Assembly: GCA_020848455.1 (NCBI GenBank)
Contig: JADLAB010000569.1
Location: forward strand, 1 to 44,918
Origin: Polyangiaceae bacterium
Lineage (GTDB): Bacteria > Myxococcota_A > Polyangia > Polyangiales > Polyangiaceae
Direction of reading: 5' to 3'
DNA length: 44,918 bases
Every line of letters begins with the position of its first letter. Within the stretch, counting starts at the first letter, position 1. The notes under the pieces were generated by a model. That model saw nothing but the letters and a program-made list of their open reading frames with translations. It did not search any database and was not told the origin of the DNA. This document shows positions 12,957-37,423 of the stretch, in pieces. The position numbers were made by a program, and so were the translations under genes.

Positions 12957-15779
<2,823 letters not shown>

Positions 15780-16937
15780 TCAGGCGGCCGGAACGAGTGC
15801 GCCGCGCGCCACCCGAAAGCTCCGGAACGACATGCCCGTGGGCAGATCGGCGAGCAGATCGGGGCGTGCGGTCGTCACGAAGACCTGTCCGAGCCCGGCG
15901 CCTAGCAGCGCGAAGAGCGCCGTCGAGCGCGCCCGGTCGAGCTCGCTCGAGACGTCGTCGAGCAGCAGGATGGGCTCGAGACCGCGCGCTGCGGCGATGC
16001 ACCCGAGCTCGGCGAGCTTCAGCGCCATCGTGAGGGCGCGGTGCTGGCCCTGCGACGCCACCTGCCGCGCCGGCCGGCCGTCGAGCGTGAGCCCGAGATC
16101 GTCGTGGTGCGGCCCGAAGCGCGGCGAGGGCCGCCCGACGTCGCGCGCGCGCCCGCGCAGGAGCTCGGCGCGCGCCTGCTCCGGGTCGGGACTGCCGCCC
16201 GGCTCGTAGCGGACCCCGAGCGCGAGCTCCGGCGGCGCGAGCCGCGCGAAGGCGGCCGTCGCCTCGACCGCGAGCGTCTCGCAGGCACGGGCGCGCCGGC
16301 GGCAGAGCGCCGCCCCGTGCTCCGCCAGGACGGCCTCGAAGGCGTCGAGCTCGCGCGCCCCGGACCCCTGGCGCAGCAGCTCGCGCCGCGCGCGCAGCGC
16401 CCGCGCGTAGGCGGCCCGGTGGCGGCTGGTCTCCGGCGCCTGGAACAGGCTCACGCGGTCGAGCAGCTCGCGGCGGGCAGCGGGCGCCCCGGTCGACAGC
16501 TCGAGCTCGGCCGGGTGGAACACGACGACCGGGGTGCGCGTCGCGTAGTGCGCGAGCGAGACCGGCGGCTCCCCGTCGAGTCGCAACACGCGCCGGGCGC
16601 CGTCGAGACCGATCGATTGATGGCGCACGTAGCCGGGCGGCGCGTCGGCCGCCGCGGCGCCGTCGAGCTCGACGACGGCGGCCCGGATGGAGGCGGCGTT
16701 CGCGCCATGAGCGACGACCTGGGCGAGGCGGCTGGTGCGGAAGCTGCGCGACGTGGCCACGAGGTAGATGGCCTCGAGGATGCTCGTCTTGCCTTGCCCG
16801 TTGTCACCCGCGATGAGATTCAAGCCCGGGGCGGGCTCGAGCTCGAGATGCCCGAGGTTGCGGACGCGCTCGACCACGAGCTCGCGGAGCGCCACGTGCA
16901 ACGTGCCGCGGTCGTCGTGCGCGACGGCGTCGGGCAA
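15780..16937 (-). CDS. recF: DNA replication and repair protein RecF
   Basis: SMC-like ATPase that loads RecA at single-strand gaps with RecO and RecR; 385 residues. Walker A is GDNGQGKT (44-51) within a strand that begins NLIAGDNG; the signature region is QGQHRALTMALKLAEL; Walker B is ILLLDDVSSELD, including the D-loop. The listed start is TTG 16937, ten bases past the dnaN stop; a GTG within LHVALREL is an equally possible start because RecF proteins usually begin just before that strand. The close spacing implies a dnaN-recF transcript. Confidence 0.96.
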   Translation of the reverse strand: MPDAVAHDDRGTLHVALRELVVERVRNLGHLELEPAPGLNLIAGDNGQGKTSILEAIYLVATSRSFRTSRLAQVVAHGANAASIRAAVVELDGAAAADAPPGYVRHQSIGLDGARRVLRLDGEPPVSLAHYATRTPVVVFHPAELELSTGAPAARRELLDRVSLFQAPETSRHRAAYARALRARRELLRQGSGARELDAFEAVLAEHGAALCRRRARACETLAVEATAAFARLAPPELALGVRYEPGGSPDPEQARAELLRGRARDVGRPSPRFGPHHDDLGLTLDGRPARQVASQGQHRALTMALKLAELGCIAAARGLEPILLLDDVSSELDRARSTALFALLGAGLGQVFVTTARPDLLADLPTGMSFRSFRVARGALVPAA

Positions 16938-16947
16938 GGCCCCGGCC

Positions 16948-18075
16948 TCAGATGCGCATGGGCATCACGACCGCGATGTAGTCGGCGTGTCCGGCGGCGC
17001 CCTCGGTGCCGGGACGCAGCACGGCCGGGTCGAGCTCGCCGGACAGACCGAGCGTCACCTCGTCCTCGTCGATGGCGGCGAGCACGTCGAGCAGGTAGCG
17101 CGCGTTGAAGCCCACGCTGATCTCCGGGCCGACGTAGTCGACCGCGAGCTCGTCGAAGCCGACGCCGCTCTCGGGGCTCTCGCTCGTGATCTTCAGCGAG
17201 CCCGGCGAGACGGCGAGCTTGATGCCGCCCGTGCGGTCGCTCGCCGCGAGCGACACGGCGCGCAGAGCCTCGGAGAGCGCGAGACGCGGTGCTCGCACGG
17301 CGCGGTTCGTGACCGCGGGAATGACGGCCTCGTACGGGGGGAACTGTGCGTCGACGAGCTTGACCGAGAAGTGGATGCCGGCAATCGTGAAGAACGCGTT
17401 GGGACCGCTCTGCGCGATCTGCACGGTGGCGCCCTCGCCCGCCTCCTCGCACAGGCGGCGCAGCTCGAGGATGGCCTTGAGGGGCAGGAGCATGGCGCTC
17501 TTCTCGCTCAGGCCCTCGACCATGACGTCGATCTTGCTGAGCCGGTGGCCGTCCGTCGTGACCATGCGCACGCGGCCCGCGAGGCACTCGAACAGGGCGC
17601 TGTTCAGGTGCGCGCGCGTCTCGTCGGCCGAGATGGAGAAGTGCGTCTTGGCGATGAGCTGCGCCAGCGTCGCGACCGGCACCTCGATCTGCGGCGCGTC
17701 CGCGCTCGGCTGGGGCAGCGCGGGAAAGTCGGTGCCGGGCATGCCGTGCAGCGTGTAGCGCCGCGCGCTGCCGCCGGCCTTGAGCGTCGTGGCCGACCCG
17801 TCGCCCACGCTGATGTGGATGGGACCCTCGGGCATCGCCTTGACGCGCTCGAACACGTCGCGCGCCGGCACGGCCACGCTGCCGGCCCGGGAGACCAGCG
17901 CCTCGGTCGAGCCGCGCACGCCGAGGAACAGATCGGTGGCCGCGACGTGCAGCACGTTGCCCTCGGCGGTCAGGAGCACGTTGGCGAGCACCGGCATCGT
18001 GCTGCGCTTGTCTGCCACGCCCTGGCAGCGCGCCAGCAAGCGGACGAGGTGTTTCTTCGGCGCGACGAGGTCCAT
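16948..18075 (-). CDS. dnaN: DNA polymerase III beta subunit (sliding clamp)
   Basis: Ring-shaped processivity clamp of the replicase, 375 residues, the usual length. The N-terminal domain begins with DLVAPKKHLVRLLARCQGV. The middle domain has FSISADETR followed by TTDGHRLSK, a hallmark of bacterial clamps, and the C-terminus ends in YIAVVMPMRI, the standard final strand. The ATG is at 18075. It is the first gene of the dnaN-recF-gyrB set and transcribes away from the repeat-containing gap at 18.1-18.5 kb. No dnaA is seen on either side. Confidence 0.98.
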   Translation of the reverse strand: MDLVAPKKHLVRLLARCQGVADKRSTMPVLANVLLTAEGNVLHVAATDLFLGVRGSTEALVSRAGSVAVPARDVFERVKAMPEGPIHISVGDGSATTLKAGGSARRYTLHGMPGTDFPALPQPSADAPQIEVPVATLAQLIAKTHFSISADETRAHLNSALFECLAGRVRMVTTDGHRLSKIDVMVEGLSEKSAMLLPLKAILELRRLCEEAGEGATVQIAQSGPNAFFTIAGIHFSVKLVDAQFPPYEAVIPAVTNRAVRAPRLALSEALRAVSLAASDRTGGIKLAVSPGSLKITSESPESGVGFDELAVDYVGPEISVGFNARYLLDVLAAIDEDEVTLGLSGELDPAVLRPGTEGAAGHADYIAVVMPMRI

Positions 18076-18488
18076 GACGACGACTTGTCGGCCTTCTTAG
18101 CAGGGTTCCCCGTGGACCGCAGGGCTGAAACGGTACTGAACTGCGCGTGCCGAACGCTGCCCGGACGCGAGCCGGGATCTCTACCTCCGGATCTCGTAAG
18201 AAATATTGAAGTGATCGTGGTCGTAGGGCCTGTGGAAACCTGGGAAACAGCACGATTTGCAGGTAATTTCGCTAGGTTGGCCATGTGGGAAACGAGGTAG
18301 CCCAAGGTGGGTGTACCTGTGCAGGAAGGCGCCACCTGGAGCTCACGGGGGTTCCCCACAGGGAGCGTCCCGGACTTGCCGGTGCCGCGAGCGCAGGTTT
18401 CCCACACCCGCTCGGTCCGGGCCGACGGTGCCGGTGGGCGGGCGAGCTTGCCGCCCGCACCTCGCTACACTTAGCCTCGCGAGACGCC
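18076..18488. other. Divergent gap, candidate oriC region
   Basis: This 413-bp non-coding stretch lies between dnaN (minus) and a kinase gene (plus). It contains a locally AT-rich segment near 18198-18215 (GTAAGAAATATTGAAGTG) and, next to it, five related motifs: GTTTCCACA (18239-18231, minus), GTTTCCCAGG (18248-18239, minus), GTTTCCCACA (18293-18284, minus), GTTCCCCACA (18351-18360, plus) and GTTTCCCACA (18397-18406, plus). They share the CCACA/CCCACA end of DnaA boxes but not the full TTATCCACA. Genes run outward on both sides, as expected at an origin. An alternative is a regulator-binding cluster controlling dnaN and the kinase. Confidence 0.45.
18231..18406. repeat. Cluster of GTTTCCCACA-type motifs
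   Basis: There are two perfect copies in opposite orientation (18284-18293 minus, 18397-18406 plus) and three near copies (18231-18239, 18239-18248, 18351-18360). Nothing comparable was noticed in the other gaps of the window. Spacing is irregular, which is typical of protein-binding boxes and not of a tandem repeat. Confidence 0.7.
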
Positions 18489-20039
<1,551 letters not shown>

Positions 20040-37302: not shown

Positions 37303-37389
37303 GGAGAGGTGGCCGAGTGGCTGAAGGCACACGCTTGCTAAGCGTGCGTAGGGGAAACTCTATCGCGGGTTCGAATCCCGCCCTCTCCG
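37303..37389 (+). tRNA. tRNA-Ser (GCU anticodon)
   Basis: Class II tRNA of 87 nt. The acceptor stem GGAGAGG (37303-37309) pairs with CCTCTCC (37382-37388), with discriminator G at 37389. The anticodon loop TTGCTAA has anticodon GCT at 37337-37339, reading AGC/AGU serine codons. A long variable arm (GGGGAAACTC region) and GGTTCGAATCC T-loop are present. The CCA end is not encoded (CCG follows). Confidence 0.97.
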
Positions 37390-37423
37390 CCGGGCGCAGC
37401 CCCGCTCACGCGCACACGTGCGC

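Follow-up and report, generated by a model that had tools for sequence, protein, structure and literature searches.

The intergenic gap at positions 18076-18488 of the window (the whole 44,918-nt stretch of DNA analyzed, which extends 18 kb beyond the gap on one side and 26 kb on the other) is predicted, with a probability of about 0.93, to be the chromosomal replication origin, with DnaA supplied from a gene located elsewhere. An oriC next to dnaN was favored because the gap contains a core that occurs once in the genome and accompanies dnaN across the order, because parS-like sites in relatives lie near dnaN, and because the intergenic skew of a relative has its axis there. The origin call is a strong one; the cellular function which it assigns would be ordinary, and it is the form that is informative, namely an origin left with dnaN that has divergent boxes and an unwinding repeat of a variant type. 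The genome itself is a 9.2-Mb draft in 742 contigs, and among named relatives a groundwater MAG with the label Myxococcales bacterium comes closest, its DnaN being 98% identical. The locus is made up as follows.

18076-18488, no strand assigned: candidate oriC region, the intergenic gap between the divergent dnaN and Ser/Thr kinase genes
16948-18075, minus strand: dnaN, DNA polymerase III beta clamp (Pfam PF00712, PF02767 and PF02768)
15780-16937, minus strand: recF-like gene (SMC_N/RecF and AAA_23 matches; the name is partly positional)
12957-15491, minus strand: gyrB (PF00204, PF00986 and PF18053)
18489-20039, plus strand: Ser/Thr protein kinase gene (PF00069; open reading frame 18285-20039, with a putative GTG start at 18489)

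The original prediction, made from the sequence of the window, described dnaN, recF and gyrB as running one way from the gap and several genes as running the other way. Pfam searches confirmed dnaN, a recF-like gene and gyrB, which run leftwards, and identified the first rightward gene as a protein kinase gene. The AT-rich patch which it placed in the gap was borne out by a dip in GC content to 57-60% at 18100-18399, compared with about 70-76% around it. The absence of dnaA also held: the scan of window proteins turned up none, and across the genome the DnaA C-terminal domain had a single match, on another contig (C356), which carries dnaA. The sole tRNA found in the window was tRNA-Ser(gct) at 37303-37391. 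In the sister species, 373 of the 413 positions of the gap were identical. The following features were assigned within the gap.

18398-18406, plus strand: DnaA box TTTCCCACA (10-mer GTTTCCCACA at 18397-18406; the sister genome, G001, has TTTTCCACA there)
18352-18360, plus strand: weak DnaA box TTCCCCACA (10-mer GTTCCCCACA at 18351-18360; TTTCCCACA in the sister genome)
18284-18292, minus strand: DnaA box TTTCCCACA (10-mer GTTTCCCACA at 18284-18293)
18241-18249, minus strand: upstream box of a tandem pair, TGTTTCCCA (relatives have TTWTCCCCA as the equivalent box; identical at 9/9 positions in the sister genome)
18231-18239, minus strand: downstream box of the tandem pair, GTTTCCACA (the TCCACA half shows almost no variation across the order)
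18227-18230, minus strand: 4-nt GC spacer GGCC, separating the downstream box from the trios
18209-18226, minus strand: DnaA-trio-like repeat CTA CGA CCA CGA TCA CTT (trio strand 3'-GAT GCT GGT GCT AGT GAA-5')
18195-18208, minus strand: AT-rich patch abutting the trios (AT-rich at an equal offset in relatives)

All five motif-like sites first reported for the gap, two of them perfect and inverted, were present (at 18397, 18351, 18284, 18241 and 18231). The accompanying description of a motif which keeps CCACA and has lost the TTAT half was in the wrong register, the 9-mer TTTCCCACA being one substitution from TTTTCCACA, as seen in the sister species. Read from these sequences, the motif is the DnaA 9-mer TTTYCCACA rather than just a CCACA half, because the sister genome has TTTTCCACA, TTTCCCACA, TTTCCCACA and GTTTCCACA at the corresponding positions. 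Sites resembling TTWTCCACA with at most one mismatch numbered three in the 44.9-kb window against 0.40 expected, a count reached in 0 of 100 shuffles, and all three fell inside the gap. With respect to the oriC criterion of at least three intergenic DnaA boxes, the gap thus held three at one mismatch together with two weaker ones. When the motif was sought elsewhere, as had been proposed, perfect GTTTCCCACA proved to be concentrated here, with two of the five copies in the 9.2-Mb genome lying in the gap (p about 3e-4 for two of five within 122 bp). The other three copies were at C319:1727, C457:9121 and C594:7617 of this genome (G000), and may represent either additional DnaA sites or coincidence.

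Enrichment of this kind was also observed in relatives, where the 500 nt upstream of dnaN contained 49 TTWTCCACA-like sites (at most one mismatch) over 30 genomes, this one included, against 3.0 expected. The original prediction had left open whether the motif was a divergent DnaA box or the site of a different factor; the former reading was upheld and the latter is now disfavored. Recognition of GTTTCCCACA by a regulator other than DnaA would fit sites in the gap that are one or two bases off TTATCCACA and the frequent occurrence of TTWTCCCCA in relatives, many of which have this sequence as the upstream box of the tandem pair. We nevertheless regard it as extremely unlikely, given that canonical TTTTCCACA occupies one equivalent position in the sister species, that several relatives have TTATCCACA or TTTTCCACA at places equivalent to the gap boxes, and that the domain IV signature of DnaA (GGRDHTTV) is kept in the organism's own protein. 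A non-DnaA factor was set aside because the corresponding sites in the sister species and in relatives match the canonical DnaA box. In the many family members whose upstream tandem box is TTWTCCCCA (C at position 7), the boxes upstream of dnaA were mostly TTATCCACA, TTTTCCACA or TTGTCCACA. Selection may, to judge from these sequences, have kept the origin boxes weaker.

Beyond the individual boxes, a 53-bp core was recognized at 18197-18249 on the minus strand, in which tandem DnaA boxes are followed by a 4-nt GC spacer, a trinucleotide repeat and an AT-rich patch (TGTTTCCCA G GTTTCCACA GGCC CTA CGA CCA CGA TCA CTT CAATATTTCTTA). The earlier reading of the gap as a candidate origin therefore stands, while this core, which resembles the B. 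subtilis BUS, had been overlooked. All 53 positions of the core were identical in the sister species, compared with 89% identity outside the boxes and core. Alignment of relatives, covering 49 genera, showed the same order of parts, with an adjacent box pair, a 4-nt GC spacer before the trios, a repeat starting CTA or TTA, and then AT-rich DNA. An AT-rich element was thus found beside the boxes (GC 57-60% compared with about 72%, with the patch at 18195-18208), and this patch is likely to be the DNA that melts first.

A sequence-only model of the core (50 positions) was trained on 16 family members, with the organism's own genus excluded. In the genome to which the window belongs, the model gave a single match, at 18202-18247 on the minus strand (28.3 bits, E 1.4e-5). 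Across 115 genomes of the order there were 46 matches at E<=1e-3, and 45 of these were on the dnaN strand, no more than about 250 nt upstream of that gene; the remaining match came from a genome in which no dnaN was detected. Nine of the 46 matching genomes belonged to the training set, and among the held-out matches 36/37 were at dnaN.

The repeat itself was examined for DnaA-trios across the order. In 49 dereplicated genera, which are not independent of one another, in-frame 3'-R(A/C)T-5' trios occupied 81/196 of positions 2-5, compared with 12 in within-sequence shuffles (maximum 25 over 5000 shuffles), and such trios were rare outside the frame of the repeat. Among R-N-T trios at positions 2-5 the central base was C in 49, A in 32, G in 15 and T in 1. 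C thus outnumbers G, and A outnumbers T, which speaks against GC bias alone as the source of the pattern. Members of families f3, f5 and f9 had runs such as TTA AGA CGA CGA CGA, which are 3'-GCT-5' repeats; members carrying the CTATCGACACCAC form fitted the trio frame poorly. The window is a mixed case, with the central bases A, C, G, C, G and A. Matches to a pattern of C-centered trios coincided with dnaN upstream regions only inside the order to which the genome belongs. As a phylum-wide pattern, three C-centered trios were rejected, since matches outside the order were mostly apparent coding runs (CCACAAGGTCTACGAGGACGA-like).

In B. subtilis the BUS consists of DnaA-boxes 6/7, a GC spacer, DnaA-trios and AT-rich DNA (PMC8287927, PMC10721633). 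DnaA-ATP extends from the boxes along one strand, capturing two bases per 3'-GAT-5' trio, the bases being taken up by Glu183, Asn187, Arg202 and Glu228, with the central adenine contacting Asn187 (PMC10721633). The core described here is similar in having two adjacent boxes, a GC spacer of about 4 nt, a repeat opening with 3'-GAT-5' and then AT-rich DNA, and the equivalents of these pocket residues (E183, N187, R202 and E228 in B. subtilis numbering, from alignment) are conserved in the organism's own DnaA. It differs in that, of the first five trios in the window, only trio 1 has a central adenine (trios 2 and 4 have C, and trios 3 and 5 have G), in that the central base across the order is mostly A or C, and in that this origin is not flanked by dnaA. 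At least three consecutive trios with a central adenine define the BUS (PMC8287927), and no such run occurs in the window; because of this the gap repeat is probably a variant that works like the BUS and not a canonical member. Trios without a central adenine have been suspected, and C, which shares the amino group, can replace A in B. subtilis (PMC8287927, PMC10721633). What appears new is the 3'-R(A/C)T-5' trio, often with a central C, which looks like a natural case of this C-for-A replacement. We lean somewhat towards a fuller reading, in which the trios of the order would be naturally C- or A-centered (3'-R-[A/C]-T-5', up to 3'-GCT-5' runs), DnaA would read an amino group rather than base identity as a counterpart of the A-to-C swap in B. 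subtilis, and the origin would have been kept by dnaN when dnaA departed.

The position of dnaA was compared across the lineage. In 39/39 sampled family members with both genes dnaA was apart from dnaN, on different contigs in 38 (which in drafts indicates separation only beyond the reach of the contig) and by 1.26 Mb in G110. A complete, separately sampled family genome, G021, has dnaA about 1.16 Mb from dnaN. Elsewhere in the order, other families (for example, G026, G028 and G037) have only a few hundred bases to about 1 kb separating dnaA from dnaN, and the core sits between the two genes. Further distances recorded in sister families were about 2.6 kb (G094), 5 kb (G079), 8 kb (G086), 21 kb (G074), 80 kb (G036) and 104 kb (G052), and these look like intermediate steps in the departure of dnaA. 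The simplest reading of these arrangements would be that dnaA moved off and the origin stayed beside dnaN. A second dnaN-like gene, in most cases divergent, was seen in G010, G011, G029, G036, G054, G082, G085 and G097.

Compared with the generic dnaA-oriC-dnaN-recF-gyrB region, the locus retains the order dnaN-recF-gyrB beside the origin, but it has lost dnaA and has a Ser/Thr kinase gene on the far side of the gap; the generic arrangement persists in other families, where dnaA and dnaN flank the core at a distance of a few hundred bases (G028, for instance). A likeness exists to Sorangium cellulosum So ce56, for which the relevant passage of PMC8538405 gives an oriC suggested (Gao and Zhang 2008) beside dnaN and nearly 2 Mb from dnaA, with no simple GC-skew inversion. 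The split of oriC-dnaN from dnaA is hence not new in kind. It had been flagged as worth noting in the original prediction, and while it is real, its novelty is reduced by being lineage-wide and by this Sorangium precedent. The So ce56 passage of that paper mentions neither the box variants nor the BUS-like core nor the distribution over the family found here.

Markers of the origin region were then compared for dnaN and dnaA. With at most one mismatch allowed, eight family members had parS-like palindromes at distances of 3-114 kb from dnaN: at 18 and 114 kb in G021 (dnaA at 1.16 Mb), as four sites at 6.6-12.5 kb in G110 (dnaA at 1.26 Mb), at 6.6-13 kb in G119, 6.5-12 kb in G015, 3.6 kb in G020, about 3 kb in G006, about 52 kb in G059 and 76 kb in G077. 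In both family genomes with dnaA and dnaN on one contig, these sites were 1.2 Mb from dnaA. G052, from another family, had a parS-like site 31 kb from dnaN and 135 kb from dnaA. G119 and G015 each had one additional single-mismatch site on another contig, and the sole single-mismatch site of G022 was on a different contig from dnaN. No parS-like site was found in the window at up to three mismatches or in the 742-contig draft at up to two; the sister genome had two variant sites, on another contig. Asymmetric parS-like clusters, with TGTTTCCCGTGAAACA replacing TGTTTCACGTGAAACA, were noted in two genera (G001:C347:10241-11084 and G006:C1:168752-168916).

Strand asymmetry was sampled in G021 using 80 stretches, each 20 kb long. 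For intergenic GC skew, an axis at dnaN gave r2 0.323 (best position 11.2 Mb, dnaN at 11.08 Mb, p<1/3000), compared with r2 0.098 for an axis at dnaA. Whole-sequence GC skew in this genome was weak (r2 0.117), skew at fourfold-degenerate sites and gene orientation were flat, and AT skew did not place the origin. The 7-mer polarity axis peaked at 4.9-5.0 Mb (dnaN axis 4.96), with 1/60 permutations scoring equally high. In G110, from 20 stretches only, the mean skew over 0-4.2 Mb was +0.019 (sem 0.009), with the sign expected. Local skew inside the window had a peak at the gap, not a dip. We take skew as supporting, not decisive.

In relatives, DnaA boxes immediately precede dnaA too (26 sites where 1.7 were expected; 0-4 per genome), so DnaA-bound promoters probably exist here. 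The boxes in the gap could then be a DnaA-controlled promoter of dnaN or of the kinase gene, with replication starting elsewhere, for example at dnaA. This we consider very unlikely, as the tandem boxes, fixed 4-nt spacer, repeat and AT patch of the core exceed the needs of a promoter, no second copy of the core is present at dnaA in the organism's own genome, and parS-like sites and intergenic skew favor dnaN over dnaA.

For the gap as origin, the following course of events is proposed. DnaA encoded elsewhere on the chromosome would bind the five boxes, with the tandem pair at 18231-18249 acting as the platform for a DnaA-ATP filament and the outer boxes (18284, 18352 and 18398) nucleating or regulating assembly. 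From there the filament would grow over the 4-nt GC spacer and along a single strand of the repeat at 18209-18226, and the AT-rich patch at 18195-18208 would open, allowing helicase loading and the formation of two forks, one of them co-directional with dnaN-recF-gyrB. From the BUS-like order of parts and the conserved DnaA residues, opening at 18195-18230 by DnaA is likely.

These data place the origin for a family in which assemblies may have been set to begin with dnaA, as in the complete genome G021, which starts at dnaA, about 1.16 Mb off dnaN. Assemblies rotated in this way would misplace replichores as well as inferences on gene dosage and terminus. Origin-search programs requiring a central A would miss origins with C-centered trios. 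Candidate natural origins with cytosine-centered DnaA-trios are now supplied, and with cognate DnaA and these origins the amino-group rule of single-strand recognition becomes testable.
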